NCBI RefSeq assembly: GCF_022524345.1
Contig: NZ_JAKWJU010000002.1
Span: 4,006,501 to 4,070,500, forward strand
Source of the DNA: Streptomyces marispadix
Lineage (GTDB): Bacteria > Actinomycetota > Actinomycetes > Streptomycetales > Streptomycetaceae
Reading direction: 5' to 3'
DNA: 64,000 nt
Positions 6,117 through 41,546 of this stretch are shown here, in pieces. A program made the translations under genes and the position numbers. The notes beneath the pieces were generated by a model that was given only the letters and a program-made list of their open reading frames with translations, had not been told where the DNA came from and made no database searches. Position 1 is the first letter of the stretch; every line of letters begins with the position of its first letter.

Positions 6117-6119
6117 GTC

Positions 6120-7784
6120 ATGTCTGTAGCAAACGCAGGTTTCCCCCTGCTGACGGTCACGGCCGCGCTGCCCGCGGCCGGAGCCGTCGTCACCGCGGCG
6201 CTGCCCGCCGCCAGGCGCGGGGCCGCGAAGTGGGTGGCGCTGCTGTTCTCCGTGGCGACGCTGGTGTCCGCGCTGGTGGTGCTCGCGCGGTTCACACCCG
6301 GCGGCCCGCGCTACCAGCTCACCGAATCGCACTCCTGGATCAGGGACTTCGGGGTGCGCTACGAGCTTGGCGTCGACGGCATCGGTGCCGTGCTGATCGC
6401 GCTCACCGCGCTGCTGCTCCCGTTCATCATCGGAGCGGCCTGGCATGACGCCGACGAGCTGGAGCCCGCGCGCCCCAACCGCCGCTGGCGGCCCACGCAG
6501 GGCTTCTTCGCGCTGATGCTGGCGACCGAGGCGATGGTGATCATCTCGTTCGCGGCGACCGACGTGTTCCTCTTCTACGTCTTCTTCGAAGCCATGCTGA
6601 TCCCGATGTACTTCCTCATCGGCGGCTTCGGCGACCGGGCCCACTCGGGCGGCGAGGACGAGGCGGCGAAGCAACGCTCCTACGCGGCCGTGAAGTTCCT
6701 GCTCTACAACCTCGTCGGCGGCCTCATCATGCTGGCCGCGGTCATCGGGCTCTTCGTCGTCACCTCCGACCAGCTCGGCGAGGGCACGTTCTCTCTCCCG
6801 GAGATCGCACGCGCACGCGCCGCCGGCGAGCTGAGCCTGGGCACGAACATCGAGCGGCTGCTCTTCCTCGGCTTCTTCTTCGCCTTCGCGGTGAAGGCGC
6901 CGCTGTTCCCGTTCCACACCTGGCTGCCCAACGCCATGGGCGAGGCGACGGCTCCGGTGGCCGTGCTGATCACCGCCGTCGTCGACAAGGTGGGCACCTT
7001 CGCGATGCTCCGCTTCTGCCTCGGCCTGTTCCCCGAGGCGAGCAAGTGGGCGACGCCGGTGGTGCTCGTACTGGCGCTGCTGAGCATCCTCTACGGTGCG
7101 CTGCTGGCGGTCGGCCAGCGGGACATCAAGCGGCTGATCGCCTACGCCTCGATCTCCCACTTCGGCTTCATCATCCTCGGCGTCTTCGCGATGACCAGCC
7201 AGGGCCAGAGCGGAGCGACGCTCTACATGGTCTTCCACGGCGTCTCCACCGCCGCGCTGATGCTGGTCGCCGGATTCCTCATCAGCCGTCGCGGCTCGCG
7301 TCTCATCGCGGACTACGGCGGTGTGCAGAAGGTGGCGCCCGTACTGGCGGGGACGTTCCTCGTGGGCGGCCTGGCGACGCTGTCGCTGCCGGGGCTGGCG
7401 CCGTTCATCAGTGAATTCCTGGTGCTGGTGGGCACGTTCAGCCGCTACCCGGTGGCTGGTGTCGTCGCCACTGCGGGCATCGTCCTGGCGGCGCTGTACG
7501 TACTGCTGATGTACCAGCGCACCATGACGGGGCCGGTGGAGAAGCCCGAGGTGCGGGCCATGCCGGACCTGAGGGTGCGGGAAGTGGCCGTCGCGGCGCC
7601 GCTGGTGGCGCTGCTGATCTTCCTCGGGGTCTTCCCGAAGCCACTGACCGAGATCGTGAACCCGGCTGTCGGGCACACGCTCTCGGACGTGCGGAAGAAG
7701 GACCCGGAACCGGAGCATCGGGTCGCGGAGACCGGATGGTTCGACTACAAGCCGGCTGAGCACGCCGGAGGTGACCACAAGTGA
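6120..7784 (+). CDS. nuoM: NADH-quinone oxidoreductase subunit M
   Basis: 554 residues. NuoM is the second antiporter-like proton-pumping subunit. About 14 membrane helices are evident. The proton-channel glutamate is in FYVFFEAMLIPMYFLIGGF (about residues 145-165), and the signature LFPFHTWLPNAMGEATAPVAV (about 261-281) is intact. The ATG start is 3 bases after the nuoL stop. The 3' end overlaps the nuoN GTG by 4 bases. Confidence 0.97.
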   Translation: MSVANAGFPLLTVTAALPAAGAVVTAALPAARRGAAKWVALLFSVATLVSALVVLARFTPGGPRYQLTESHSWIRDFGVRYELGVDGIGAVLIALTALLLPFIIGAAWHDADELEPARPNRRWRPTQGFFALMLATEAMVIISFAATDVFLFYVFFEAMLIPMYFLIGGFGDRAHSGGEDEAAKQRSYAAVKFLLYNLVGGLIMLAAVIGLFVVTSDQLGEGTFSLPEIARARAAGELSLGTNIERLLFLGFFFAFAVKAPLFPFHTWLPNAMGEATAPVAVLITAVVDKVGTFAMLRFCLGLFPEASKWATPVVLVLALLSILYGALLAVGQRDIKRLIAYASISHFGFIILGVFAMTSQGQSGATLYMVFHGVSTAALMLVAGFLISRRGSRLIADYGGVQKVAPVLAGTFLVGGLATLSLPGLAPFISEFLVLVGTFSRYPVAGVVATAGIVLAALYVLLMYQRTMTGPVEKPEVRAMPDLRVREVAVAAPLVALLIFLGVFPKPLTEIVNPAVGHTLSDVRKKDPEPEHRVAETGWFDYKPAEHAGGDHK

Positions 7785-21904: not shown

Positions 21905-22991
<1,087 letters not shown>

Positions 22992-22999
<8 letters not shown>

Positions 23000-24989
23000 C
23001 GAGGGATGCCTCCTTCAATGCGGTCGCGAGCTGCTCGGCCTTGAAGGGCATGCCGTTGACCTGGGTGTAGGAGTGTGCGTCGACGAGGTATTCGGCGCGG
23101 ATGAGGGTGGCGAGCTGGCCGAGGTTCATCTCGGGCACGATGACCCGCTCGTAACGCCGGAGCACCGCCCCGAGGTTGGACGGGAACGGGTTGAGATGGC
23201 GCAGATGCGCCTGTGCGATGTGCTGCCCGTCCCTGCGCAGCCGGCGCACGGCCGCGGTGACCGGCCCGTACGTCGAACCCCAGCCCAGTACCAGCGTCTT
23301 GGCGCGGCCGCCCGGGTCGTCGGCCTCGATGTCGGGCACGTCGACGCCGTCGACCTTGGCCTGGCGGGTGCGGACCATCAGGTCGTGGTTGGCCGGGTCG
23401 TAGGAGATGTTGCCGCTGCCGTCCTGCTTCTCGATCCCGCCGATGCGGTGTTCGAGGCCGGGCGTTCCCGGGACCGCCCAGGGCCGCGCCAGGCTGTGCG
23501 GGTCGCGCTTGTACGGCCAGAAGGTCTCGGTGCCGTCGTCGAGCCGGTGGTTGGGGACCTGGGCGAACTGCACGCTCAGATCCGGGAGTTCGTCCGTCTC
23601 CGGGATACGCCAGGGCTCGGAGCCGTTGGCGAGATAGCCGTCGGAGAGAAGGAAGACCGGTGTGCGGTAGGTCAGCGCGATGCGGGCGGCTTCCAGTGCC
23701 GCCGTGAAGCAGTCGGCGGGGGTGCGCGGCGCGACGATCGGCACGGGTGCCTCGCCGTTGCGCCCGTACATGGCCTGGAGCAGATCCGCCTGCTCGGTCT
23801 TGGTGGGCAGCCCCGTCGAAGGGCCGCCGCGCTGGATGTCGACGATCAGCAGCGGCAGCTCCAGCGAGACCGCGAGCCCGATGGTCTCCGACTTCAGCGC
23901 CACACCCGGGCCCGACGTGGTGGTCACGCCGAGCGCGCCTCCGAAGGCTGCGCCGAGCGCGGCGCCGATGCCGGCGATCTCGTCCTCGGCCTGGAAGGTG
24001 CGAACCCCGAAGTTCTTGTGCCGGGACAGCTCGTGCAGCACGTCCGAGGCGGGCGTGATCGGGTACGAGCCGAGGAAGAGCGGCAGCCCCGACTGGTGGG
24101 ACGCGGCGATCAGGCCGTAGGCGAGGGCGAGATTGCCCGAGATGTTCCGGTACGTCCCGGGCGGGAAGGCGGAGCTGGCGGGTGCCACCTCGTAGGAGAC
24201 GGCGAAGTCCTCGGTGGTCTCGCCGAAGTTCCAGCCGGCCCGGTACGCGGCGATGTTGGCCTGTGCGACCTGCGGCTTCTTCGCGAACTTGGTGCGCAGG
24301 AAGTGCTCGGTCTGCTCGGTCGGGCGGTTGTACATCCACGACAGCAGGCCGAGGGCGAACATGTTCTTGGAGCGCCCGGCGTCCTTGCGGCCGACGTCGA
24401 ACTCCTTGAGCGCCTCCACGGTGAGCGTGGTCAGCGGCACCTCGTGGACCCGGTAGCCGTCGAGCGAGCCGTCCTGGAGGGGGCTGACGTCGTAACCGAC
24501 CTTCGCCATCGCGCGCTTGGTGAACTCGTCGGTGTTGACGATGATCTCCGCGCCGCGCGGCACGTCGCCGATGTTGGCCTTGAGCGCCGCCGGGTTCATC
24601 GCCACGAGCACGTTGGGGGCGTCGCCCGGCGTGAGGATGTCGTGGTCGGCGAAGTGGAGCTGGAAGGAGGAGACGCCCGGCAGCGTGCCCGCGGGGGCGC
24701 GGATCTCGGCGGGGAAGTTCGGCAGCGTCGACAGGTCGTTGCCGAAGGAGGCCGTCTCGGACGTGAAGCGGTCGCCGGTGAGCTGCATGCCGTCGCCGGA
24801 GTCGCCCGCGAAGCGGATGATCACGCGGTCCAGGCGGCGTACTTCCTTGCCGGGGGCGGGCCCCTCCACGCGTGGGGCGCCGGTGCCGTCCGTACCGTTC
24901 GCGGCTGCCGTGCCGTCCGCGGCGCCGGTCGCCGCGGGCTCATCAGGGCCCGGGCGCTGCCCGGCTGGGCTGTTGACCTGGTTGGTCAC
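22992..24989 (-). CDS. korA: 2-oxoacid:ferredoxin oxidoreductase, fused gamma-alpha subunit
   Basis: 665 residues. After a 45-residue Ala/Pro-rich lead, the gamma domain (RVIIRFAGDSGDGMQLTGDRFTSETA, to about residue 230) is fused to the alpha pyrimidine-binding domain (FGVRTFQAEDEIAGIGAALGAAFGGALGVTTTSGPG). LIVDIQRGGPSTGLPTKTEQ is the family signature. There is no ferredoxin domain, so electrons go to a separate ferredoxin. KorA of mycobacteria has the same fused layout. The enzyme makes low-potential reductant and links the citric-acid cycle to respiration; its place 6 kb from the second nuo cluster is notable. Confidence 0.95.
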
Positions 24990-26154: not shown

Positions 26155-27498
26155 TCAGACCTGCCAGGGGAGTTGGGCGGTGATGGTGGTGGGTCCGCCG
26201 GTGGGGGAGTCGATGAGGAGGAGTCCGTCTACGGCGGTGAGGCGTTCGGTGAGTCCTTTGAGGCCGGTGCCGTGGGTGGTGTTGGCGCCGCCTTGGCCGT
26301 TGTCGGTGATTTGGAGGTGGAGGTGGTCGTGGGTTTTCCACAGGTCGATGTGGGCGGTGGTGGCGCCGGAGTGTTTGGTGATGTTCTGGAGTAGTTCGGA
26401 GGCGGTGAAGTAGGTGATGCCTTCGATGGCTTGGGCGGGGCGTTGGGGGAGGTCGTCGGTGATGGTGGTGGTGGCGGTGCAGCGGGTGGCGAGTGCGGTG
26501 AGGGCGGGGGCGAGGCCGCGGTCGGTGAGGATGGCGGGGTGGATGCCGCGGGCGAGGTCGCGGAGTTCTTGGAGGGCGAGTTTTGCTTCGCCGTGTGCTT
26601 CGTCGACCATGTCGGCTGCGGCTTGGGGGTCTTCGAGGAGTTTTTCCTTGGCGAGTCCGAGGTCCATGGCGAGGGTGACGAGGCGTGCTTGGGCGCCGTC
26701 GTGGAGGTCGCGTTCGATGCGGCGCAGGTCGGCCGCGGCGGTGTCCGCCACGGAACCACGATCCGACTCCAACTCCCTTACGCGGGTGGCGAGCGGCGAA
26801 GGGCCGAGCAGCCCGAGCACCATCAGCCGGTCGATCTGCGTAAGCCCCCGCACGATCCACGGCGCCGCCGTCAGCAGGACCAGCCCGACCGCGCAGGCGA
26901 TCGCCACCTCCGGTGGGCTGTCCACGTACATGCCCCCGATCTGCGTCGTGCCGTCCACGGTCGCCCCGTCGGGCCCCAGCCGGATACCGGGCTGGCCCAG
27001 ATGCCGGGGGAAGACCCACTGCCACGCGGGATACAGCGTCAGCGTCCAGGCGCACGACCAGAAGGTGACGGAGACGACGAAGGCGAACAGCGCCCAGGGG
27101 AAGTACAGCAGCGTGTAGAGCAGATGCCGCCAGGAGACGCCGCTGCGCAGCAGCGCCCCCATCCATGGCATCAGGCCGCTGCGCCGCTGAAGCGTGTGCA
27201 CGGGCTCGGGCTCGGCGATGTCCACGTCCAGCAGCGTCCGCGCCCGCATCCGCTCCAGTACGCCGAGGCCGCGGCAGCCCATCAGGGCCGCGGCGAGCAC
27301 GGGCACCCCGAGGAAGGTGATCAGCAGTCCGGCGCCCGCCGAGACCATGACGACGGTGTACGAGAAGAAGAGGCATGCCAGCGGCAGCCCCGTGACGACG
27401 TACAGCAGCTCGCGCCATGTGCGTGCCTCGAACGGGGCGCGCAGTGCGGCGGGCATCCGGTGCGGCCGGGGCCCTGCGATGTCGGTTGCGGTAGCCAT
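26155..27498 (-). CDS. Sensor histidine kinase 1 (HisKA_3 type)
   Basis: 447 residues. The N-terminal half has four or more membrane helices with two Pro/Trp-rich external loops. The transmitter begins near residue 240; the phospho-acceptor is in RIERDLHDGAQARLV (H near 262). ATP-binding motifs are ASELLQNITKHSG and ITDNGQGGANTTHGTGLKGLTERL. Everything from ELESDRGS to TAQLPW is identical to kinase 2 and is encoded by the repeat 26163-26776. Codon use changes sharply there: CAA, GAA and AAA are favoured, while the membrane half uses CAG and GAG. ATG 27498 fits the RTWRELLYVV start of the first helix. Confidence 0.92.
   Translation of the reverse strand: MATATDIAGPRPHRMPAALRAPFEARTWRELLYVVTGLPLACLFFSYTVVMVSAGAGLLITFLGVPVLAAALMGCRGLGVLERMRARTLLDVDIAEPEPVHTLQRRSGLMPWMGALLRSGVSWRHLLYTLLYFPWALFAFVVSVTFWSCAWTLTLYPAWQWVFPRHLGQPGIRLGPDGATVDGTTQIGGMYVDSPPEVAIACAVGLVLLTAAPWIVRGLTQIDRLMVLGLLGPSPLATRVRELESDRGSVADTAAADLRRIERDLHDGAQARLVTLAMDLGLAKEKLLEDPQAAADMVDEAHGEAKLALQELRDLARGIHPAILTDRGLAPALTALATRCTATTTITDDLPQRPAQAIEGITYFTASELLQNITKHSGATTAHIDLWKTHDHLHLQITDNGQGGANTTHGTGLKGLTERLTAVDGLLLIDSPTGGPTTITAQLPWQV
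26163..26776 (-). repeat. 614-bp kinase-core repeat, copy A
   Basis: It matches 27874-28487 at a constant offset of 1711 bases. Where I compared base by base I found a single difference (26764 C, 28475 T). It covers the HisKA_3 and ATPase domains of kinase 1. Flanking coding sequence on both sides is unrelated. Confidence 0.93.
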
Positions 27499-27760: not shown

Positions 27761-29116
27761 TCAGTGGACGCGGCGGAAGCGCCTGCGCTTCGTACGGGAG
27801 TCCTTGCCCGTACGGGTCTTCTTGCCGTTGCCGCGTTCCGCGCCGGGGCTCCCGTGTCCGTTCTCCCGTTCGCGCCAGGGGAGTTGGGCGGTGATGGTGG
27901 TGGGTCCGCCGGTGGGGGAGTCGATGAGGAGGAGTCCGTCTACGGCGGTGAGGCGTTCGGTGAGTCCTTTGAGGCCGGTGCCGTGGGTGGTGTTGGCGCC
28001 GCCTTGGCCGTTGTCGGTGATTTGGAGGTGGAGGTGGTCGTGGGTTTTCCACAGGTCGATGTGGGCGGTGGTGGCGCCGGAGTGTTTGGTGATGTTCTGG
28101 AGTAGTTCGGAGGCGGTGAAGTAGGTGATGCCTTCGATGGCTTGGGCGGGGCGTTGGGGGAGGTCGTCGGTGATGGTGGTGGTGGCGGTGCAGCGGGTGG
28201 CGAGTGCGGTGAGGGCGGGGGCGAGGCCGCGGTCGGTGAGGATGGCGGGGTGGATGCCGCGGGCGAGGTCGCGGAGTTCTTGGAGGGCGAGTTTTGCTTC
28301 GCCGTGTGCTTCGTCGACCATGTCGGCTGCGGCTTGGGGGTCTTCGAGGAGTTTTTCCTTGGCGAGTCCGAGGTCCATGGCGAGGGTGACGAGGCGTGCT
28401 TGGGCGCCGTCGTGGAGGTCGCGTTCGATGCGGCGCAGGTCGGCCGCGGCGGTGTCCGCCACGGAACCACGATCTGACTCCAACTCCGCGATGCGCCGCT
28501 CCAGTTCGTCGGAGGGCGAGAGCAGCCCCCGTACGAGGGCACGGTCGACGTTCGTCAGCCCCCGCGCCAGCCACGGCAGCACCGGCCAGGCCACGAACAG
28601 CGCGGGCAGCGTGACCCCGAAGCTGAGCCAGCCCCAGGGCAGCCGTACGAAGAAATACAGCACGTGCCGCCAGGCCACCGAGTCCTTGAGCTGCGCCCAC
28701 AGCCACGACAGGAAGCCGTCCTCGCGCGCACGCACGGGGCTCGGCTCCTCGATGCTCACGCGCAGCAGCAGCCGCGCCCGTGCCCGCTCGAACCGTCCCA
28801 GCCCGCGTGCGCCGAGCAGCGTCAGCGCCAGCAGCGGCAGCCCGATCAGAGTGAACGACAGCCCCGCCGAGGCGGAGATGCAGGCCGTGATGTAGACGAA
28901 TCCGACGACGCCGACGGGCATGTTGCACAGCAGGTGTACGACCTCCCGCCATGACTGCGCGCTGAGCGGCGGCGCGGGCGGCGGCAGGCGCTCTTCGCCG
29001 GAGCCCTCGAGGCCGCCGGGCTTGCCGGGGCCGCTGGGCTCGCCGAAGTCGCCCGAGGCCCCGAAGTCGTACGGGTCCTCGGTGCCGCCGGTGCCGGAAG
29101 GGTGTCTGGCGCTCAT
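27761..29116 (-). CDS. Sensor histidine kinase 2 (HisKA_3 type)
   Basis: 451 residues. A 50-residue Gly/Pro/Glu-rich cytoplasmic lead precedes four membrane helices that are only loosely similar to kinase 1 (SWREVVHLLCNMPVGVVGFVYI; the RARLLLRVSIEEPSPV linker). The catalytic core is identical in protein to kinase 1. After it comes a unique 35-residue basic tail (GNGKKTRTGKDSRTKRRRF). ATG 29116 has no good ribosome-binding site, so the start is less certain. Kinase 2, kinase 1 and the regulator lie in that order on one strand. The identical cores suggest both kinases phosphorylate the same regulator while sensing through different membrane domains. Confidence 0.9.
   Translation of the reverse strand: MSARHPSGTGGTEDPYDFGASGDFGEPSGPGKPGGLEGSGEERLPPPAPPLSAQSWREVVHLLCNMPVGVVGFVYITACISASAGLSFTLIGLPLLALTLLGARGLGRFERARARLLLRVSIEEPSPVRAREDGFLSWLWAQLKDSVAWRHVLYFFVRLPWGWLSFGVTLPALFVAWPVLPWLARGLTNVDRALVRGLLSPSDELERRIAELESDRGSVADTAAADLRRIERDLHDGAQARLVTLAMDLGLAKEKLLEDPQAAADMVDEAHGEAKLALQELRDLARGIHPAILTDRGLAPALTALATRCTATTTITDDLPQRPAQAIEGITYFTASELLQNITKHSGATTAHIDLWKTHDHLHLQITDNGQGGANTTHGTGLKGLTERLTAVDGLLLIDSPTGGPTTITAQLPWRERENGHGSPGAERGNGKKTRTGKDSRTKRRRFRRVH
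27874..28487 (-). repeat. 614-bp kinase-core repeat, copy B
   Basis: This is the partner of 26163-26776. It covers the same domains of kinase 2 and ends in the same codons of the ELES linker. Confidence 0.93.
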
Positions 29117-29455: not shown

Positions 29456-30698
<1,243 letters not shown>

Positions 30699-31070
30699 GT
30701 GCCGGACTATTTCCACGGCTATTCGGTCGTCGGGCTGGTCGCGGTGGTCGGAGTGCTCTTCGTCGCCGTCGCGTTCGGCGCGGGACGGCTGCTGCGGCCG
30801 GTGGTGCCGACGCGGGAGAAATTCCTGACGTACGAATGCGGCGTCGATCCCGTGGGCGAGGGCTGGGCGCACACGCAGATCCGCTACTACGTGTACGCGT
30901 TCCTGTATGTGATCTTCGCCGTCGACTCGGTCTTCCTCTTTCCATGGGCGACCGTCTTCGCTGCGCCCGGCTACGGCGGTGTCACTCTGATCGAGATGTT
31001 CGTCTTCCTCGGATTCCTCACCGTCGGCCTGCTGTACGCATGGAAGAAGGGCGTCCTGGAATGGACGTGA
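30699..31070 (+). CDS. nuoA: NuoA-like subunit, second complex I cluster
   Basis: 123 residues, three membrane helices, full NuoA length. The conserved loop [13 protein letters not shown] with its cysteine (about residues 41-53), which lines the quinone entrance, is present. So is the acidic segment [12 protein letters not shown]. The GTG start follows AGGAAGGG. It overlaps nuoB by 10 bases. This is the first gene of a ten-gene cluster separate from the main nuo operon. Confidence 0.94.
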
Positions 31071-31849
31071 ACCGCGACGTGACGAACACGAACGACGACG
31101 TGACGAACGAGGCGAACGGCCGTGAGCGAGGCGGCGGCGCGAGCGGGCCTGCCGGAGAGAGCCGCTCGGGTCCGGTGGTGGTGAAGGCGGCGGCCAAGGC
31201 GCTCGGCCCGCTGGCGAGACTCGCGCCCGAGCCGATGAAGGTCGTACTCAACTGGGGCCGCCGCTACAGCCTCTGGGTCTTCAACTTCGGACTGGCCTGC
31301 TGCGCCATCGAGTTCATCGCGGCCTCCATGGCACGGCACGACTTCATCCGCCTCGGCGTCATCCCCTTCGCGCCCGGACCCCGGCAGGCGGACCTGATGG
31401 TCGTCTCGGGGACGGTCACCGACAAGATGGCGCCCGCGGTGAAGCGCCTGTACGAGCAGATGCCGGAGCCCAAGTACGTGATCTCCTTCGGCGCCTGCTC
31501 CAACTGCGGCGGCCCGTACTGGGATTCGTACTCCGTGACGAAGGGCGTCGACCAGATCATCCCCGTCGATGTGTACGTGCCGGGGTGCCCGCCGCGGCCC
31601 GAGGCGCTGTTGCAGGGCGTGCTGAAGCTCCAGGAGAAGATCGCCCGGGAGTCGACGGCCCAGCGGTACGCAGTCACGTCGCGCGGGCCTTCGACCGCAG
31701 CGCTGCGGAGCGGCCTGGTGGCGCCGCCGGAGGCGAACAGCGGTGCGCGGGACGGGAATTCGGACGCCGGCGCCGACGGCGGAACGCATGGGAGGACGGA
31801 CGGCGAACCGGGCCCCGGTGCCGATCCGGAGGAGGGCGGCGGCCGGTGA
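31061..31849 (+). CDS. nuoB: NuoB-like subunit, second complex I cluster
   Basis: 262 residues. NuoB carries cluster N2, which hands electrons to quinone. All four N2 cysteines are visible: the tandem pair in [10 protein letters not shown] (about 81-90), the one in [12 protein letters not shown] and the one in [12 protein letters not shown]. The core is flanked by a charged 45-residue N-terminal extension and a 60-residue Gly/Asp-rich tail. Start ATG 31061 (or GTG 31067). Its usual partner NuoD, needed to close the quinone pocket, is not encoded in this cluster. Confidence 0.94.
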
Positions 31850-33258
31850 GCGGGCCCGAGGAGCCGAAGGCAGAGCAGGCCCCGGGCGGGCCGGAGGGTG
31901 CTGACGCGCGTCAGGAACGGGACACGGCGGACGCACGGCCCGAGCCGGAGGGTATGGAGTCGCAGCCGGAGTCGAAGGGCGCGGATGCGCAGGCGCTGCC
32001 GGAGTCGGCGAGGGTTCCGGCCGGCTGGCTGCCCGACGGCGCGGAGGCGCTGTTCGGCGAAGGCGCACGTGCGGAGGAGTCGTACGGCCTGCTGACCGTC
32101 GACGTGCCCCCCGGATCGTGGATCTCCGCGCTCGAAACCGCTCGGGACGGGCTCGGCTGCCGCTTCTTCGACTGGCTGAGCGCGGTGGACGAGCCGGGCA
32201 CCGGCTTCCGGGTGTACGCCCATGTGGTGGCCCTGCCGGGGGGCTCGGGGCCGGAGCCGCGGGACCGGGGACCGGACGCGGCCGACGAAGCGCGAACGGA
32301 GAGCGCGGAGGAAGCGCGATCGGAAGGGCGAACGGAAGCGCCGGAGGCGGGACTTGACGAGCGGGGGCCGGCGGGGCCTCCGTCGGGCGGGGCCGTGCGC
32401 CGGTTGCTGCTGCGTACGACCGTGCCGCACGAGGCGCCCGTACTGCCGACCGCGACCGCCGTCTTCGCGGGTGCCGCCTGGCACGAGCGCGAGACCCACG
32501 AGATGTTCGGCGTCGACTTCAGCGGCCATCCCGGGCTGACTCCGCTGCTGCTGCCCGACTCCTTCGAAGGGCACCCGCTGCGCAAGGACTTCGTACTGGC
32601 CGCACGCGTGGCCAAGGCGTGGCCCGGAGCCGTAGAGCCAGGCGAGTCCTCCCACGGCGCACCGAAACGCAGGCAGATGCTGCCCCCGGGCGTACCGGAC
32701 CCCAACGAATGGGGGCCGCTCAAGGGGCAGTTGCCGCCCGTACCGTCACGGCCCGCACGCGGACGCGCGGGCCGCGCGGGTGCGGCGGAGCGCCCCGCAC
32801 GGCGCGCACGCTCGGCGAGCGCGGGCTCGGCCAGCCAGCGCGGAGACGCGGAGGCGGCGGAACAGCGACCCGGAGGGGAGCGTGCAGCGGAACGCGAACG
32901 GGAGCGGGAGCAGTCTCCCCAGACTCCTGAGCAACCCCCGGGACAGGAGCGGACGGCGCCCGGCGGTGGTGCCGGTCGGCGCAGGCCGTCCGATGCGCCC
33001 TGGCACGACGGCGGCGAGCGTTCCGGCAACACCGGTTCCGGCAACCCCGAATCCGGCAAGGGTGGTTCCGGCGAGGGCGTTTCGGAAGAGTCCGGCTCCC
33101 GCACCACCGATTCCGGTCGTGGCGGCGCGGGCGGCGAAGGCTCCGACCCCGGTGCGGAAGGCTCCGACTCCGGTGGCGAGGGCTCCGACTCCGGTGGCGA
33201 GGGCTCCGACTCCGGTGGCGAGGGCTCCGGTCCGCGACCGCCGAAGGGAGGCGCCTGA
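31846..33258 (+). CDS. nuoC: NuoC-like subunit with long repetitive tail
   Basis: 470 residues. The 30-kDa-subunit signature [37 protein letters not shown] (about 217-253) identifies NuoC, a structural subunit of the hydrophilic arm. The N-terminal 50 residues are Glu/Ala-rich. An acidic insertion of about 45 residues splits the conserved domain. The last 190 residues are disordered and end in heptad repeats EGSDSGG encoded by a 21-bp tandem array. No NuoD domain is fused at either end. Both ends overlap neighbours by 1-4 bases. Confidence 0.9.
33136..33234. repeat. 21-bp tandem repeat in nuoC tail
   Basis: Four full copies start at 33136, 33157, 33178 and 33199, with a 15-base partial copy following; copies 3 and 4 are identical. 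It is in frame and encodes [28 protein letters not shown]. Copy number is likely to vary between strains. Confidence 0.9.
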
Positions 33259-34217
33259 TGGATGTGGTCGACGTCCTCTGGCGGCTGCTCGCCGTACTGC
33301 TGGCGTTTCTGCTGCTGCCGCTGATCGTCGGACAGGCCGAGCACAAGGCGATGGCGCACATGCAGGGCCGCGTCGGGCCCATGTACGCGGGCGGCTTCCA
33401 CGGCTGGGCCCAACTCGTCGCCGACGGGGTGAAGTTCGCGCAGAAGGAGGACATCGTCCCCGATGGCGCCGACCGGCGGATCTTCCAACTGGCCCCCGCC
33501 GTCGCGCTGTTGCCGTACCTCGTGGTGCTGATCGCGATTCCCGTCGGGGACGGCGACGCGGTCGGCCAGGCCGTCGACGCGGGCGTCTTCTTCGTACTCG
33601 CCGTGATGGGCGTCGGCGTACTGGGCTCGCTCATGGGCGGCTGGGCCTCCGCGAACAAGTTCTCGCTGCTGGGCGGACTTCGTACGGCGGCCCAACTGCT
33701 CGCGTACGAACTGCCGATGCTGCTCGCCGCCGCCTCCGTCGCGATGGCCGCGGGCACGCTGTCCCTCACCGGCATCCTCGACGCCTGGCAGTGGTGGTGG
33801 CTGCCGTGGCAGGTCGCCGGCGGGCTCGTCTTCTTCACGGCAGGGCTGGCCGAGTTGCAGCGTCCGCCGTTCGACGCCCCGGTCGCCGACTCGGAGATCA
33901 TCTTCGGCGCGTACACCGAGTACACGGGGCTGCGCTTCGCGCTCTTCCTGCTCGCCGAGTACGCGGGCATCGTCGTGCTCTCCGCGCTGACGGCCGTGCT
34001 CTTCCTCGGCGGCTGGCACGGACCCGCCTCCGACTCGATCGGCTGGGTGTGGACGCTGCTGAAGACCGCCGTCCTCGCCTTCGTCGTCATCTGGCTGCGG
34101 GTGAGCTATCCGCGGCTGCGTGAGGACCAGATCCAGCGGGTGGCCTGGACCGTGCTCGTGCCGCTCGCCCTTCTCCAGATCGCCCTCACCGGCGTCGTCA
34201 AGGTGGTGATCCAGTAA
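33258..34217 (+). CDS. nuoH: NuoH-like subunit, second complex I cluster
   Basis: 319 residues, close to E. coli length and without the tail of the main NuoH. Eight helices are evident. The first quinone-site loop reads [15 protein letters not shown] instead of [14 protein letters not shown]. The acidic loop reads [24 protein letters not shown], so one conserved Glu is Val and the next is Asp compared with PESEGDL of the main copy. These changes lie at the proton/quinone coupling point, so altered rather than standard activity is possible. The start overlaps the nuoC stop by one base. Confidence 0.93.
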
Positions 34218-34906
34218 TGCCCGTGCCCGGCTCGGGACTGGCGAAGGGCCTCGCCGTCACCCTTCGTACGATGACGCGCCGCTCGGTCACCGCGCACTAT
34301 CCCGACGCGGCGCCCCAACTGCCGCCACGCAGCCGCGGAGTGATCGGCCTCTTCGAGGAGAACTGCACCGTCTGCATGCTCTGCGCCCGCGAGTGTCCCG
34401 ACTGGTGCATCTACATCGACTCGCACAAGGAGACGATGCCCGCCGCCGCACCCGGAGGACGCGAGCGCAGCCGCAACGTGCTCGACCGCTTCGCCATCGA
34501 CTTCGCGCTGTGCATGTACTGCGGCATCTGCATCGACGTGTGCCCCTTCGACGCGCTGTTCTGGTCACCGGAGTTCGAGTACGCCGAGACCGACATCCGC
34601 GAACTCACCCATGAACGGGACAAGCTCCGGGAGTGGATGTGGACGGTGCCCGAGCCGCCGCCGCTCGATCCGGCGGCCGAGGAGCCGAAGGAGATCGGCG
34701 CCGCGCGTAAGACGGCGGACAAACTCGCGGCACGGCAGGCGGAGTCGGCACCCGAGGGTCCGACCGCACCCGAGGGTCCGACCGCACCCGGAGGCCCGGC
34801 GGGAGCCGAGCAGGCGCCGGATCACGCACCGGAGGCGAGGGAGCAGGCGCCCGAACAGACGCAGGAGCCCCGGCGCCCCGGCGGCGAGCAGGAGGGCGAT
34901 TCGTGA
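34217..34906 (+). CDS. nuoI: NuoI-like ferredoxin subunit, second complex I cluster
   Basis: 229 residues. Two complete [4Fe-4S] motifs are present, [12 protein letters not shown] (about 52-63) and [12 protein letters not shown] (about 97-108). The core is followed by a 75-residue tail with repeated EGPTAP units. It should relay electrons to NuoB. ATG overlaps the nuoH TAA in TAATG. Without NuoE, F or G in the cluster, its own electron donor could be ferredoxin rather than NADH; that is inference. Confidence 0.93.
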
Positions 34907-35547
34907 ACGCAGCCGTATCCGCCGCCACTTCGCTCACCGCATCCACATCCCCTTCCGCCCTGACCGCCGACGCCTCCGCCGCGACCGCAACGGCCGCCGC
35001 CCACCCCGGCTTCCTCTCACCCACCGGCGTCGAGATCGTCTTCGTACTGGTCGGGCTGGCCACCTTCGGCGCCGCGCTCGTCACCGTCACCACCCGGCAA
35101 CTCGTGCACGCCGCGCTGTGGCTGGTGGCTGCGCTCGGCGGGGTGGCAGTCGAATATCTGCTTCTCACCGCCGAGTTCATCGCGTGGGTCCAGGTACTGA
35201 TCTACGTCGGTTCGGTCGTCGTGCTCCTGCTGTTCGGGCTGATGCTCACGAAGGCGCCCATAGGGCCCTCACCCGACGCCGACTCCGGCAACAGATGGCT
35301 CGCACTCGCCGTCGCCCTCGTATCAGCGGCCACTCTCGTCACTCTCGTCGTCGACGCGTTCCGTACGACCTGGATCGATCTGCGCACGTCGGCGGAGGGT
35401 TCCACCCGGGTCACCGGTGAAGCGCTCTTCCGAGGCTGGGTACTTCCCTTCGAAGCCTTGTCCGTACTGCTGCTCGCGGCGCTCGTCGGTGCCATAGTCC
35501 TCTCCCGGAAGGCGGCACCGGAGAAGAAGCAGGAGGGGCAGCGCTGA
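34903..35547 (+). CDS. nuoJ: NuoJ-like subunit, second complex I cluster
   Basis: 214 residues, five helices. The coupling-helix motif [24 protein letters not shown] (about 86-109) corresponds to TM3 of NuoJ. A 45-residue Ala/Thr/Ser-rich segment precedes the first helix. GTG 34903 overlaps the nuoI stop by 4 bases. It is shorter than the 329-residue main NuoJ because it lacks the long cytoplasmic tail. Confidence 0.92.
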
Positions 35548-36107
35548 TGCACATCGCCTACCCGGCCGTACTCGCAGCCCTGCTCTTCTCCACCGGTCTC
35601 TACGGCGTACTCGCCCGCCGCAACGCCATCCTCATGCTGATGTCGGTCGAGTTGATGCTCAACGCCGTCAATCTCAACCTCGTCGCCTTCGACGCCTGGC
35701 TCCGCGAGGAACTGCACACGGGCCAGGCCCTCGCGCTGTTCACCATCGCCATCGCCGCCGCCGAGATCGGCATCGGCCTCGCCATCGTGCTGCTCGTGTA
35801 CCGCACCCGGGGCAGCTCCGACATCGACCGGCTGAGAGACCTGCGCGAGGGCGGCCCGGGCGACCCCGGCGGAGACGCGACCGACGGCCCCGGGCCGGAC
35901 GGCCCGCACACCGGCACCGGTACCGGCACCGACAGCGGACCTGACTCCGGTACGGACACCACCGGCACCGGCACAACCCCGTCCGGCAGCACAGCAGGCA
36001 GAGCAACAGGCGTCGCAGGCACGGCAGACAGAGCAACGGACAGCGCAACAGGCGATCCGACAGGCAAGACGGCTACCACCACCGGCAGCGGGAGGCAGAA
36101 AGCGTGA
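35547..36107 (+). CDS. nuoK: NuoK-like subunit with long hydrophilic tail
   Basis: 186 residues. The first 95 are a normal NuoK with three helices and both buried glutamates ([25 protein letters not shown]). The remaining 90 residues are a Gly/Thr/Asp/Pro-rich tail with [14 protein letters not shown] repeats, which NuoK of the main operon lacks. ATG overlaps the preceding TGA by one base. Confidence 0.92.
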
Positions 36108-38134
36108 GCACCACGACCCTGGCCGCCCTCGTCCCCCTGCTGCCGTTCCTCGGCGCCGTCGCCGGCCTGCTCACCGGTCGCCGCGCGCCCGGCTTCGCGC
36201 AGCCGCTCGCCGTACTGCCGACGCTGCTCTCCACGGCGTTCGCGGTCACCGTCGCCGTACGACAGGGCGGCGGCGAGCCCATCAAGGCGGCGACCGAGCT
36301 GACGCCGACGGGCGACGCCGCGCTGCCGATCCAACTCGCCCTGCAACTCGACGGGTTCGCCGTACTCGTCGCCGTGCTCGTCGGTGTCGTCGCCTCCTGC
36401 GTGCAGCTCTACTCCACCGGCTATCTGCGCGACGACCCCCGCTACGCCAGCTACGCCGCCTTCGTCTCCCTCTTCACCGCCGCGATGCTGCTCGTCGTCT
36501 ACGCGGACGACCTGATCGTGCTGCTCGTCGGCTGGGAAGTCATGGGCATCTGCTCGTACTTCCTCGTCGGTCACTACTGGGAGACCCAGGCCGCGCGGGC
36601 CGCGTCCATCAAGGCGTTCCTGGTCACCAAGCTCGGCGATGTCCCCTTCCTCATCGGCATCCTCGTACTCGCCACCGACGCCGGTACCTTCCGCATCAGC
36701 GGCATCACCTCCAAACTCACCTCCCAGCTCGCCCAGTTCGAGCTGACGCACCCCACCGTCGTCGCGCTGCTGCTGCTCGCGGGCATCGCGGGCAAGTCCG
36801 CTCAGTTCCCGCTGAACACATGGCTGCCCGACGCCATGGCCGGCCCGACGCCCGTCTCCGCGCTGATCCACGCCGCCACGATGGTCGCCGCCGGCGTGTA
36901 CGTCGTCGCCAGGCTGCTGCCGGTCTTCGAAGCATCCACCGCAGCGCTCGTCGTACTCGCCGCCATGGCCGCCGTGACGATCGTCGGTTCTGCGCTGGCC
37001 GCGCTCGCCCAGGACGACGTCAAACGCGTCCTCGCCTACTCGACGATCGGCCAACTCGCCTATATGGCCGGTGCGTTGGCCGTCGCCGACCGCAGTGCCG
37101 CCGTCTTCCACCTCCTCACTCACGGTGCGTTCAAGGCGCTGCTCTTCCTCGCCGCGGGCGTCGTCATCCACGCCGCCGGCACGAACTCGCTCGCCGCCAT
37201 GTCCCGTATGGGCGGCCTCACCAAGATCGCCCCGGACGCGTACTGGACGATGACGATCGGGCTGCTCGCGCTCGCCGCCCTGCCTCCCTTCAGCGGCTTC
37301 TTCTCCAAGGAAGCCGTCTTCGCCGCCGCCGAGCACGCCGCGTTCGGCGGCGCCCACGCCGAGGGCGTCCCCACGGCGGCCGGGTGGATCGTGCTCATCT
37401 CCGGCATGCTCGGCGCGCTGCTCACGGCCGCGTACGCCACACGGCTGTGGCTGCTCGCCTTCCGGGGCGAGGGCCCGCGCGCCTCCTCCGAAGAGCACGG
37501 ACGTGAACCCGCCGTCATGAACGTCGTGTTGTGGCTGCTGGCCATCCCCTCCCTCGCGCTCGGACTCGCCGCCGGTGTGCTGCCGGGCTGGTTCGACAGC
37601 GGCTCCCTCGCCCCCTCACTCGCGACATCCGTACCGGCCACGGGCGTCGCCGCCGTCGGTGTCCTCGTCACATACGGCGCCTGGCGGCACACCACCTCCC
37701 TCGCCGCGTCCCGCGCCCCACTGGGTGCCGTAGCCGCACACCCGCAGGGTGACCCGGCCCTGTCGGAGGCCGAGGCCATCGCCACCCATGAGCCCGCCTA
37801 CGGGGACATCGCCTCCGCCCCCGACCCGGCAGACCCCGGAAGGCTGCTGCTCGGCCCCCTCCACCAGGCAGCGGCACACGGCTTCCATCTGGACGCCGCC
37901 TACCGGGCGTTGTTCGTACGCCCGGCAGAGGCCGCAGCCCGGCTCGTCCGCTTCCTCGACCGCGAGGTCGTCGACACCTGGGTGCGTGCCGCCGCCCTCG
38001 GACCCGGCCTGCTGGGCACGCTCGTACGCCGCACCCAGACCGGCAACACGCAGACCTACCTCGGCGCGCTCGTGGTGGGCTCGCTGCTGCTCACCGTGGC
38101 CGTCGTCCTGGTCGCCGGAAACGGAGGAGCCTGA
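36104..38134 (+). CDS. nuoL: NuoL-like subunit, second complex I cluster
   Basis: 676 residues. Antiporter-like pumping subunit with the C-terminal lateral helix. The channel glutamate is in [18 protein letters not shown] (about 143-160); the helix signature [25 protein letters not shown] is intact. GTG 36104 overlaps the nuoK stop by 4 bases, and nuoM starts 2 bases after the stop. All residues that I can recognise as essential for proton transfer are kept, so this is not a decaying copy. Confidence 0.95.
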
Positions 38135-38136
38135 CC

Positions 38137-39900
38137 GTGATCCCCCTCGGCAACGCCGCCATGCAGGCGCTCCTCATCGCCGTACTCGTACTTCCACTGC
38201 TCGGCTCGGCCGCCGCGCTGCTGCCGGCACCGCCCGGGCTCAAGGGCCGCGACCCGGAACAGGCCGTGCTGCGGCACGGAGTAACCGTCACCGGCGCCGT
38301 GCTCGTCGCCTCCGTCGTACTCGCGCTCGGCTTCGACACCGCACGGCCCGGGACCATGCAGGCCGAGTCCGACGTCGAGTGGATTCCCTCCCTGGGCGTT
38401 CACCTCCATCTCGGGGTCGACGGCGTCTCGTTGCCACTGCTCGTACTGACCGCTCTGCTCACCTTCCTCTGCTCTCTGCACAGTTACGGGGCGCACCTCA
38501 AGGCAGCGCCCGCGAGCGGCGACAGCTCGAAGGAGGGCCGGGACCAGGACGGCGACCGCACCGAAGGCGCCGCCGCGGCCCGACTCCACGGCACACCCCA
38601 GGCGTTCGTCGCCCTGCTGCTCCTCCTGGAGGCCGGGACGCTGGCGACCTTCGCCACCCTCGACCTCCTGCTGTTCTTCCTCGCGTTCGAGACCGTGCTC
38701 GTCCCGATGTACTTCCTGATCGCCCGCTGGGGGGTGGCCGACCCCCGCGAACGGGCCGCAGCCGCCTGGAAGTTCATCCTCTACACGCTGCTCGGCTCCG
38801 TCGTGATGCTGCTCGGCCTCCTCCTCATCGGTCTCAAAAGCGGCACTTTCGACATCGTGGCACTCGCCACTGACAGTCACCCCGAGCTGAGCCGCACCAC
38901 CCAGATACTCGCCGTCCTCGCCGTGGGCGCCGGGCTCGCGGTGAAGACCCCGATGTGGCCGCTGCACAGCTGGCTGCCCGACGCGCACACCGCCGCTCCG
39001 ACCGTCGGCTCCGTACTCCTGGCAGGCGTTCTGCTGAAGATGGGCACCTACGGCTTCGTACGGATACTGCTGCCGGTCGCCCCCGAGGGGATGCACACCT
39101 TCGCCCCGTATCTCGCCGCCCTCGCCGTGACCGGGATCGTCTACGGATCGCTCGCCTGCCTCGCCCTCGCACGCCGGGGCGCCGGCGGCGACCTCAAGCG
39201 CCTCATCGCGTACTCCTCCGTCGGCCACATGGGCTTCGTGCTGCTCGGCATCGCGACCATGACCCCCACAGGCGTCAACGGCGCCCTCTTCGCGAACATC
39301 GCCCACGGTCTGATCACCGGCCTGCTCTTCTTCCTGGTCGGCGCCCTGAAGGAGCGCACGGGCAGCACGAGTCTCGACACACTTTCGGGGGAGACCGGCG
39401 GAGCGCTCTACGGCACCGCGCCCCGCTTCGGCGGGCTGATCGCCTTCGGCGCCGTCGCCTCGCTCGGACTGCCCGGACTCGCGGGTTTCTGGGGCGAGAT
39501 GCTGACACTGCTCGGCGCGTACGACCCGGCCGGCGGCCTCAGCCGCCCCGCGTTCACCACGTACATGGCGATCGGCGGCCTCGGAACGCTGCTGACGGCC
39601 GCGTACATGCTCGTCGTCGTACGCCGTGTCTGCATGGGCGATCCCCTGGAGGAGCGCGGCGACGCACACCACCGCGAACGCTGGCAGCTCAAGGACCCCG
39701 ACCCCGGCACCTCGCCCGAGCCGCAGGCCGCGGGCGCGCACCCGGCCCCGGCGACCGTGCGCCTGCCCGACCTGCGCGGCTACGAGTACGCGGCCTGGAC
39801 GCCGCTGGTCGTCCTCACCGTCGCCGCCGGGCTGTGGCCCGCGCTGCTCCTCGGGCTCACCGACCCCGCGGTACAGAGCCTGCTGGGGGTCGCCCGATGA
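38137..39900 (+). CDS. nuoM: NuoM-like subunit, second complex I cluster
   Basis: 587 residues. Antiporter-like subunit. The conserved glutamate is in FFLAFETVLVPMYFLIARW and MWPLHSWLPDAHTAAPTVGSVLLAG is the NuoM signature. There is a hydrophilic loop of about 35 residues near 120-155, in the same place as the loop in other actinobacterial copies. GTG start; the 3' end overlaps nuoN by 4 bases. Confidence 0.95.
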   Translation: MIPLGNAAMQALLIAVLVLPLLGSAAALLPAPPGLKGRDPEQAVLRHGVTVTGAVLVASVVLALGFDTARPGTMQAESDVEWIPSLGVHLHLGVDGVSLPLLVLTALLTFLCSLHSYGAHLKAAPASGDSSKEGRDQDGDRTEGAAAARLHGTPQAFVALLLLLEAGTLATFATLDLLLFFLAFETVLVPMYFLIARWGVADPRERAAAAWKFILYTLLGSVVMLLGLLLIGLKSGTFDIVALATDSHPELSRTTQILAVLAVGAGLAVKTPMWPLHSWLPDAHTAAPTVGSVLLAGVLLKMGTYGFVRILLPVAPEGMHTFAPYLAALAVTGIVYGSLACLALARRGAGGDLKRLIAYSSVGHMGFVLLGIATMTPTGVNGALFANIAHGLITGLLFFLVGALKERTGSTSLDTLSGETGGALYGTAPRFGGLIAFGAVASLGLPGLAGFWGEMLTLLGAYDPAGGLSRPAFTTYMAIGGLGTLLTAAYMLVVVRRVCMGDPLEERGDAHHRERWQLKDPDPGTSPEPQAAGAHPAPATVRLPDLRGYEYAAWTPLVVLTVAAGLWPALLLGLTDPAVQSLLGVAR

Positions 39901-41546
39901 CCGTCCTCGCCCAGGGCGCCGCGCACACTGCCCAGTTCGCGACCTCCGCGGAGCTCGCTGCCCCGGCGCAACTCGCGGAGTCCGCCGTCCAGTCCGTCGA
40001 CTGGCTCGCGATCTCCCCGCCCACGATCGCCGCCGTGGCCGGACTCGCCGTACTCGTCGCCGACCTCTTCCTCTCCGAACGAGCCAAGCGGCTTCTCGGC
40101 CCCCTCTCCGCCGCCGCCCTGCTGCTGTCGGCCCTGCCCCTGCTCTTCCTCCGTACGAGGGACCTGGGGACGTTCTGCCTCCCCGACGAGGCGCAGACGT
40201 GCAGCTACTCCGCCGACACCCTCGCCCTCGTGCTCCAATTCCTCATCCTGGGCGCCGCGTTCGTCACCGCGCTGCTGTCGATGCCCGCGGTACGCGACCT
40301 GGGCCTGCCGCCCGGCGAGTACTGGTTCCTGCTGCTGTCCGCCACCGCCGGGGCCGCGCTCGTCCCCGCCTCACGCGATCTGGTCACCCTCGTCATCGCG
40401 CTGGAGACCGCGTCGCTGCCCGCCTTCGCGCTCGTGGGAATGCGGCGCGGAAGCCGCGGTTCCGCCGAGGCCGCGCTGAAGTTCTTCCTCTCCTCCGTCA
40501 CCGCCACCGCCGTGACCCTCCTCGGCGCGAGCTTCCTCTACGCCGTAACGGGCACCCTCTACTTCCGCGGCATCAGCGAGGGCCTCACCCGAGCCGATCC
40601 GCAGCTCGACGCCCTCGGCAGCGCCGGGCTCGCCCTCACACTCGTGGGCTTCGCCTTCAAGGCGTCGGTCGTCCCGTTCCACTTCTGGGTCCCCGACACC
40701 TATGTGGGCGCCCCCGTGCCCGTCGCCGCCTTCCTCTCGGTGGTCGGCAAGAGCGCGGGCATCTCCGGCCTCATCCTCCTTCTCGTCCAGGCGTTCTCCT
40801 CCCGTGCGGAACTCTGGGGCCCCGCGCTGGGAGTGCTCGCCGCCGTCACCATGACCGCGGGCAACGCCGCCGCCCTGCGCCAGCGCACCGACCGTGCGCA
40901 CAGCGCCGTACGCCTGCTGGCCTGGTCCTCCGTCGGCCAGGCTGGATATCTCCTGGTGCCGCTGGCCGCCGCCGCTGCGGACGCCGGGGGTACGGAACCC
41001 TCCGGCCCGGCGCTCTCCACGGTCGGCGCCACCGTCGCGTATCTGCTGATGTACGCCGCCGTGAACCTCGGCGCGTTCGCCGTCGTCGCCCACATCGCCC
41101 GCACCAGCGGCCCCAACCGCCTCGCCGACTACCGCGGCCTCTACGCCTCCCACCCCCTCGCCGCCCTGGCGCTCGCCTTCTTCCTGCTCTGCCTCGCGGG
41201 TCTGCCGCCCGGTGTCATCGGCCTCTTCGCCAAGGTCGCGATCTTCTCCACCGCCGTGGGCAGCGGCCTGGGCTGGCTCGCCGTGATCATGGCCGTCAAC
41301 GTGGTGCTCGCCCTCTTCTACTACCTGCGCTGGACGGCCCTGGTCTTCCGTACGGGTGCGACATCGGCGTCCGCCGCGTCCGCGACTCCCGTACCGGCTG
41401 CCGAACCGGTGCCCGACGGCGCACGCCGGGGTCCGCGCATGGCACCGCCGCTGGCCGTCGGCATCGCCCTCACCGCGGCAGCGGGCATCGCGCTCTCCGT
41501 CGACCCGGACCTGGTGCTCACGTTCACGTCGGGCGGCCTGCGCTAG
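39897..41546 (+). CDS. nuoN: NuoN-like subunit, second complex I cluster
   Basis: 549 residues. Antiporter-like subunit; the channel glutamate is in LVIALETASLPAFALVGM, and FKASVVPFHFWVPDTYVGAPVPVAAF is the NuoN signature. A 40-residue Ala/Ser/Gln-rich lead precedes the first helix. ATG 39897 overlaps the nuoM stop. It is the last gene of the cluster; no clear hairpin follows and htpX is 303 bases on. Confidence 0.95.
   Translation: MTVLAQGAAHTAQFATSAELAAPAQLAESAVQSVDWLAISPPTIAAVAGLAVLVADLFLSERAKRLLGPLSAAALLLSALPLLFLRTRDLGTFCLPDEAQTCSYSADTLALVLQFLILGAAFVTALLSMPAVRDLGLPPGEYWFLLLSATAGAALVPASRDLVTLVIALETASLPAFALVGMRRGSRGSAEAALKFFLSSVTATAVTLLGASFLYAVTGTLYFRGISEGLTRADPQLDALGSAGLALTLVGFAFKASVVPFHFWVPDTYVGAPVPVAAFLSVVGKSAGISGLILLLVQAFSSRAELWGPALGVLAAVTMTAGNAAALRQRTDRAHSAVRLLAWSSVGQAGYLLVPLAAAAADAGGTEPSGPALSTVGATVAYLLMYAAVNLGAFAVVAHIARTSGPNRLADYRGLYASHPLAALALAFFLLCLAGLPPGVIGLFAKVAIFSTAVGSGLGWLAVIMAVNVVLALFYYLRWTALVFRTGATSASAASATPVPAAEPVPDGARRGPRMAPPLAVGIALTAAAGIALSVDPDLVLTFTSGGLR

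Follow-up and report, generated by a model that had tools for sequence, protein, structure and literature searches.

A second complex I gene cluster in Streptomyces marispadix, its unlinked nuoD2 and a probable dedicated 11-subunit enzyme

The window considered here, a stretch of 64,000 nucleotides from Streptomyces marispadix (contig NZ_JAKWJU010000002.1, positions 4,006,501 to 4,070,500 of the forward strand), contains at 30699-41546 a second set of genes for respiratory complex I, referred to as nuo2. It consists of ten intact genes on the + strand, nuoA2-B2-C2-H2-I2-J2-K2-L2-M2-N2, with an intergenic spacing of -4 to +2 bases, and no D, E, F or G gene is found within 30699-41546. The initial annotation had described a ten-gene complex I cluster without nuoD, E, F and G and, hence, without an NADH module of its own, and gene order and family matches confirm both statements. 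The main 14-gene operon, nuo1, starts at L005:4320, 38 kb upstream, and finishes with nuoN1 at window position 9478, 21 kb before nuoA2. Subunits of the two sets are 31-52% identical by blast in the ten pairs compared, NuoN1 being outside that search.

The product of nuoA2 (30699-31070, with a GTG start) matches PF00507 with 110 bits, and that of nuoB2 (31067-31849; PF01058, 100 bits) exhibits the four Cys ligands of cluster N2, a 15-residue motif, and an Ile where NuoB1 has Met. NuoC2 (31846-33258) reaches 99.7 bits against PF00329, with its core in residues 185-254 and long low-complexity additions that include repeated GSDSGGE-like units, and is by its sequence a genuine NuoC despite these stretches; NuoK2 (35547-36107; PF00420, 98 bits) also bears a long low-complexity addition, in the form of its C-terminal tail. 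NuoH2 (33258-34217) and NuoJ2 (34903-35547) match PF00146 with 329 bits and PF00499 with 122.6 bits, respectively, while NuoL2 (36104-38134; PF00361, 232 bits; TIGR01974, 460 bits), NuoM2 (38137-39900; TIGR01972, 525 bits), and NuoN2 (39897-41546; PF00361, 169 bits; TIGR01770, 291 bits, below the cut-off of 333) score against Mrp antiporter models as well. Nine of the ten products exceed the Pfam cut-off for their own subunit family or for the shared antiporter domain, the exception being NuoI2 (34217-34906), which is identified through its Fer4 domains and the NuoI model TIGR01971 (95.8 bits, below the cut-off of 113) and has eight Cys for two 4Fe-4S clusters. The Fe-S ligands are invariant, with the four Cys of NuoB2 in 41 of 41 aligned copies and the eight of NuoI2 in 39 of 39. 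The Glu and Lys motifs that we assume to be characteristic of the antiporter-like subunits are present in NuoL2, NuoM2, and NuoN2. The earlier claim that all metal ligands and proton-path glutamates are intact holds for the ligands and fails for the glutamates, since NuoH2 has a Val in place of the first Glu of PExE, taken here to be a proton-path residue.

A search of the genome with the NuoD family, which the initial annotation had proposed as a way to find an orphan nuoD, returns two genes: besides nuoD1 of the main operon there is an orphan nuoD2 (C2:3823727-3824956, that is, L004:9728-10957), which encodes a protein of 409 amino acids, 36% identical to NuoD1, and lies 212 kb from nuoA2. 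The separate location of nuoD2 relative to the Streptomyces nuo2 operon has already been published (PMC3765725, PMC8388888); the absence of nuoD from the cluster is accounted for, by an answer that is largely already in print. Among 121 Streptomyces genomes sampled, NuoD2 is present in 118 (once as a part at a contig edge) and NuoH2 in 119; all five absences fall in drafts of 250 to 1300 contigs, and the view that the cluster is preserved and not decaying is therefore upheld. In a sample of 296 genomes of the class Actinomycetes, 31 of them Streptomyces, NuoD2 is found in all 72 genomes with a NuoH2 of at least 418 bits; one further genome has a weak NuoH match and no NuoD2. At the 41 D2 loci inspected, drawn from 40 of the 113 NuoD2-positive class genomes plus a few Streptomyces, NuoD2 never stands together with the remaining nuo2 genes. 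At one of them (L107, 4.9-9.6 kb), NuoM/NuoL antiporter-like relatives adjoin nuoD2, and these are absent at the other 40.

In other classes of the phylum, 20 stretches from 19 genomes were hand-picked from the listed matches, and 16 of them display the order A, B, C, D, H, with D closest to NuoD2 by blast; I comes next in 15 (the sixteenth reaches a contig end), J is recognised in six, and nuoN2 is not seen in one of these operons nor in two that are cut. Gene labels are here best blast matches, a few of them to a nuo1 protein. All 16 D proteins carry the Arg and Trp residues of NuoD2 discussed below, and the remaining four stretches contain more distant nuo operons. Since nuoD2 lies between C and H in these classes, the ten-gene Streptomyces form most plausibly derives from an eleven-gene operon, for an 11-subunit complex I without an NADH module, whose D gene has moved. 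The initial annotation had expected the cluster either to borrow NuoD from the main operon or to use another partner; borrowing of NuoD1 is rejected, as it is not needed when a dedicated NuoD2 exists and stands in the operon in other classes, and it is the partner that has been found. In quick trees, D2 and B2 each form a single clade apart from D1 and B1 (SH-aLRT 100); the D2 tree contains 39 rows from the 41 loci, with two loci left out for want of a usable NuoD2 frame, both of which show Arg and Trp in a six-frame census.

Near nuoD2 lies midA, which encodes a PF02636 methyltransferase (55.9 bits, cut-off 23.3) and is separated from nuoD2 in S. marispadix by a bacterial-PH-domain gene. MidA is found inside the fetched stretch at 38 of the 41 D2 loci, just outside it at one, and nowhere in the genome in the two others; it is also found at 75 of 80 named loci, where four of the five misses are short stretches. 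In the class sample, MidA and NuoD2 occur together in 106 genomes, NuoD2 only in seven, MidA only in four (three of them weak matches, E 1e-10 to 1e-12), and neither in 179 (Fisher p=6e-66, ignoring phylogeny), and 75 double-positive genomes are left when the 31 Streptomyces are removed. Six families contain double-positive as well as double-negative genomes and, therefore, the association does not go back to one shared event. Moreover, MidA is directly 3' of nuoN2 in two loci of other classes. An AlphaFold model of the S. harbinensis MidA homologue (pLDDT 87.6) matches COG1565 proteins in Foldseek and Dictyostelium MidA 5ztz with E 2.4e-18, TM 0.69, and 17% identity, a similarity that is insignificant when sought from sequence only (E 0.14).

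In human complex I, Arg-85 of NDUFS2 is dimethylated by NDUFAF7 (PMC3829151). The arginine of the HRGxE motif lies 3.7 A from N2 and is replaced by threonine in Thermus; its dimethylation occurs in Paracoccus but not in E. coli (PMC8042128). In the six-frame census, this place is occupied by Arg in 93 of 93 NuoD2 loci and by Thr in 11 of 11 NuoD1; the census excludes the 80 named loci, which had been found by patterns that themselves include the Trp. Thus, NuoD2 has the target arginine where NuoD1 has Thr, which would explain why MidA tracks NuoD2, and we infer that MidA methylates the arginine of NuoD2.

On these grounds, the ten clustered genes, together with the distant nuoD2, probably specify one dedicated 11-subunit complex I, which would have a MidA-methylated D2, a ferredoxin-type donor, and proton pumping. 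In the proposed enzyme, a Q module made of B2-C2-D2-I2 would be joined to a membrane arm of A2-H2-J2-K2-L2-M2-N2, with no NADH-oxidising N module. The nuoD2 gene would have resided ancestrally inside the operon and would in the class Actinomycetes now stand beside midA, whose NDUFAF7-type product would mature NuoD2 through methylation of the arginine adjacent to the Fe-S cluster N2. A soluble carrier of low potential, for which reduced ferredoxin is the likeliest candidate, would donate electrons to NuoI2; these would proceed to N2 in NuoB2 and reach their acceptor, menaquinone or a different one, in a pocket modified by Trp for Tyr, and their transfer would drive proton pumping via L2, M2, and N2. 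No biochemistry of the nuo2 complex turned up in the open-licence PMC literature searched.

Several observations weigh against this proposal. Pairwise distances, which are not independent of one another, correlate between D2 and B2 (r=0.87, 28 genomes) and between D2 and I2 (r=0.82, 27), with lower values for the controls N1 (r=-0.04, 15) and KorA (r=0.25, 19). However, in full-cluster genomes (n=13) the values for D2-B2 (r=0.57) and D2-I2 (0.60) are not tighter than those for D2-N1 (0.66, 7 genomes) and D2-KorA (0.68, 10) and, since these genomes alone show D2-B2 no tighter than the controls, the distance signal is mostly joint acceleration in lineages without the membrane arm. The place of the quinone-binding Tyr is taken by Trp in 93 of 93 NuoD2 loci, whether full, reduced, or from other classes. 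The genes korB and korA, for the beta and alpha subunits of a 2-oxoacid:acceptor oxidoreductase that might have been seen as a source of reduced ferredoxin, are located in the same neighbourhood in the absence of nuo2 at all 20 loci picked around KorB in NuoD2-less genomes, with nuoN1 in the stretch in 12 of them. In addition, the NuoEFG subunits of the main operon could dock onto nuo2.

In the quinone pocket, a hydrogen bond to quinone is made by Tyr87 of Nqo4, a residue termed conserved and essential, and Met51 of Nqo6 is a further quinone contact (PMC7434922). The quinone-binding Tyr is kept in 11 of 11 NuoD1, and the four more distant loci of other classes comprise two with Arg and Tyr and two without the motif. 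In the alignment of NuoD2, one full row has Leu at the place of the Trp and two have no His; the census nevertheless returns Trp throughout. The canonical site is preserved in part: among rows with no gap at this place, the His of GPQHP is retained in 52 of 54 from full systems and in all 20 from reduced ones. The Trp makes the site less canonical and does not bear on the subunit make-up. When the CC pair of NuoB is taken as residues 45 and 46, a numbering that we assume, the place of Met51 is occupied by Ile in 20 of 21 full NuoB2, by Ile (10), Gly (5), or Met (1) in 16 copies from other classes, and by Met in 11 of 11 NuoB1. The first Glu of PExE in NuoH2 is replaced by Val, Ile, or Leu in all 37 copies (21 of 21 from the class and 16 of 16 from other classes), and NuoH1 has Glu there in the five rows, out of seven, that cover it. 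These changed residues in D2, B2, and H2 suggest that nuo2 may use another electron acceptor or a different proton donor.

As for the electron donor, the genome has three matches to the NuoF family (PF01512). Judged by neighbouring genes or domains, nuoF1 alone among them belongs to complex I; the second NuoF-family gene adjoins a formate-dehydrogenase-like molybdopterin oxidoreductase. A second complex I NuoF was not found in this PF01512 search, NuoE and NuoG not having been searched genome-wide. The initial annotation had considered that a nuoD-like gene elsewhere might supply an ordinary NADH-linked isoform; the gene does lie elsewhere, and nothing shows such an isoform in a genome searched for further NuoF only. 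The third NuoF-family match, in L194 (C2:326000-339000), is a minus-strand gene at 5792-7366 whose product carries a ferredoxin domain (PF13459) C-terminal to its NuoF-like part (PF01512, PF10589).

The korB and korA genes occupy window positions 21905-24989 on the minus strand, about 6 kb upstream of nuoA2; the alpha subunit is above the cut-off of TIGR03710 and the beta subunit below its cut-offs, and specificity for 2-oxoglutarate is presumed. Of the 40 loci inspected, 26 have KorAB close to nuo2 (14 of the 20 with NuoH2 and 12 of the 20 lacking it); the 20 with NuoH2 come from 19 of the 72 genomes with NuoH2 plus one of the Streptomyces sample, and those lacking it are B2 loci from 20 of 39 NuoH2-less genomes. 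KorB is common, in 228 of 296 class genomes (99 of 113 with NuoD2 and 129 of 183 without). KorAB was rejected as the donor, its neighbourhood and occurrence not being specific to nuo2, and the ferredoxin link via KorAB is weak because the same neighbourhood exists without nuo2. Reduced ferredoxin as the likeliest donor has roughly even chances of being right; complex I enzymes without the N module provide an analogy (PMC11238625, PMC9686372), and the electron donor of these enzymes has been described as an open question (PMC11238625).

Further genes lie upstream of nuoA2. Two neighbouring sensor histidine kinase genes, AbrC-like by their place, have in common a stretch of 614 bases that is 99.8% identical (window 26163-26776 and 27874-28487), as after recent gene conversion, and a gene for a trypsin-family protease (PF00089) is situated at 29456-30274, between the kinase genes and nuoA2.

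The function of nuo2 has been called unclear and a hybrid machine has been proposed (PMC9239103; a hybrid also in PMC3765725 and PMC8388888), whereby Nuo2 subunits would enter the main 14-subunit complex I through an antiporter or Q-module swap, with NADH electrons arriving via NuoEFG of the main operon. The end of that operon 21 kb upstream of nuoA2 fits this idea but Nuo2 has its own complete set of subunits, with NuoD2 among them, the Nuo1 and Nuo2 clades are deeply separate, and the quinone-site residues of D2, B2, and H2 all differ from those of the main set. Moreover, a Rex-operator-like site with one mismatch to the consensus as we assume it (equalled by 8 of 200 shuffles) precedes nuoA1 by about 120 bases (L005:4181-4196), whereas no such site with three or fewer mismatches to that same assumed consensus is found before nuoA2 in the window. 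The hybrid is thus unlikely.

The dedicated 11-subunit complex I seems to have membrane-free relatives. NuoH2 is missing in 41 of the 113 NuoD2-positive class genomes, all of which have NuoD1. Exactly one NuoH match is present in 40 of them, and the other (G145) has an extra weak match and broken nuoH2 fragments; a second NuoB match is found in 39, NuoH and NuoB being the two subunits whose second copies were sought genome-wide. In 16 of 20 inspected NuoH2-less neighbourhoods, nuoB2-C2-I2 stand without any other recognisable nuo2 gene at the site. Locus L135 has B2 and C2, followed by I2 4.5 kb further on; L133, from G145, has A2, B2, C2, a broken H2 (fragments at about 7.9-8.2 kb), and I2, and seems to be a membrane arm caught mid-loss; and L132 (A2, B2, C2) and L134 (B2, C2) are interrupted by contig ends. 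The reduced loci keep the Fe-S ligands (four Cys in each of 20 NuoB2 and eight in each of 18 NuoI2), and their NuoD2 still has HRGAEK and HDW, with small changes. The ten-residue segment of NuoB2 before CC, which presumably faces quinone and membrane, is near-invariant in 21 full copies and degenerate in reduced ones, where its Trp is left in six of 20; four of these six are L132-L135, which cluster with full systems in trees. The D2 tree requires four changes between full and reduced labels, one for a clade of 17 reduced systems and three for isolated cases, and its long branches leave the details unsure. It would appear that the membrane arm was lost repeatedly and the electron-carrying part kept, possibly as a soluble enzyme. 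A broader proposal, offered tentatively and somewhat short of an even chance, is that nuo2 forms a class of complex I in its own right, in which NuoD is arginine-methylated and the site of the electron acceptor is non-canonical, and which in many Actinomycetes is now a membrane-free, soluble Fe-S oxidoreductase of NuoB2-C2-D2-I2 with MidA as maturase.

These relatives also bear on the idea that NuoD2 and MidA act in a process that has nothing to do with the cluster, with NuoB2 working with NuoD1, as the absence of NuoH2 from 41 of 113 NuoD2 genomes might suggest; nevertheless, a second NuoB match is present in all but two of these 41, NuoD2 lies in the operon in other classes, and the rates of D2 and B2 shift together, which makes this option very improbable. 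The initial annotation had also envisaged a proton/sodium translocator, and NuoL2, M2, and N2 do match Mrp antiporter models; a mere antiporter-like device of this kind, without a redox role or need for NuoD, is hardly credible, given the invariant Fe-S ligands of B2 and I2 in aligned copies and the persistence of the redox subunits B2, C2, I2, and D2 in genomes without a second NuoH. The large subunit of [NiFe] hydrogenases holds its Ni through CxxC ligands, and a membrane-bound hydrogenase of this type was rejected, as NuoD2 has two Cys, neither of them in CxxC.

One cell with two NuoDs, one with Thr and Tyr and the other with Arg, Trp, and MidA, represents a natural experiment on complex I, which could show how arginine dimethylation beside N2 acts and if the enzyme can really do without the tyrosine of the quinone site. 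A small assembly in which to seek the donor of a complex I without an NADH module would be provided by the membrane-free relatives. The link between MidA, NuoD2, and the arginine, the altered pocket, and the membrane-free module were not found in the open-licence PMC literature searched and seem to be new.

Among known systems, the nuo2 genes of Streptomyces (SCO4599-SCO4608) with their separate nuoD2 are a cluster of the same kind, and in S. marispadix the cluster adjoins a two-kinase two-component system, as it does AbrC in S. coelicolor (PMC9739823). In the passages that list nuo2 in PMC3765725 and PMC8388888, A2, B2, D2, and H2-N2 are named and C2 is not. With the 11-subunit enzymes, nuo2 shares the subunits A-D and H-N and the lack of NuoEFG, and its best NCBIfam models are PRK12322 for NuoD2 and PRK07756 for NuoA2, both under cut-off; it differs from them in the unlinked nuoD and may also do so in its Trp at the place of the quinone Tyr. 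The core subunits are homologous to those of the 14-subunit NADH:quinone oxidoreductase encoded by nuo1, whereas nuo2 has no N module, NuoEFG not being encoded with it, and has Arg and Trp in NuoD2 where NuoD1 has Thr and Tyr. Finally, MidA resembles the NDUFAF7/MidA arginine methyltransferases in its PF02636 domain, in the 5ztz fold, and in the conservation of the target arginine in NuoD2, but is in this case an actinobacterial enzyme of predicted activity that is linked to a second NuoD.

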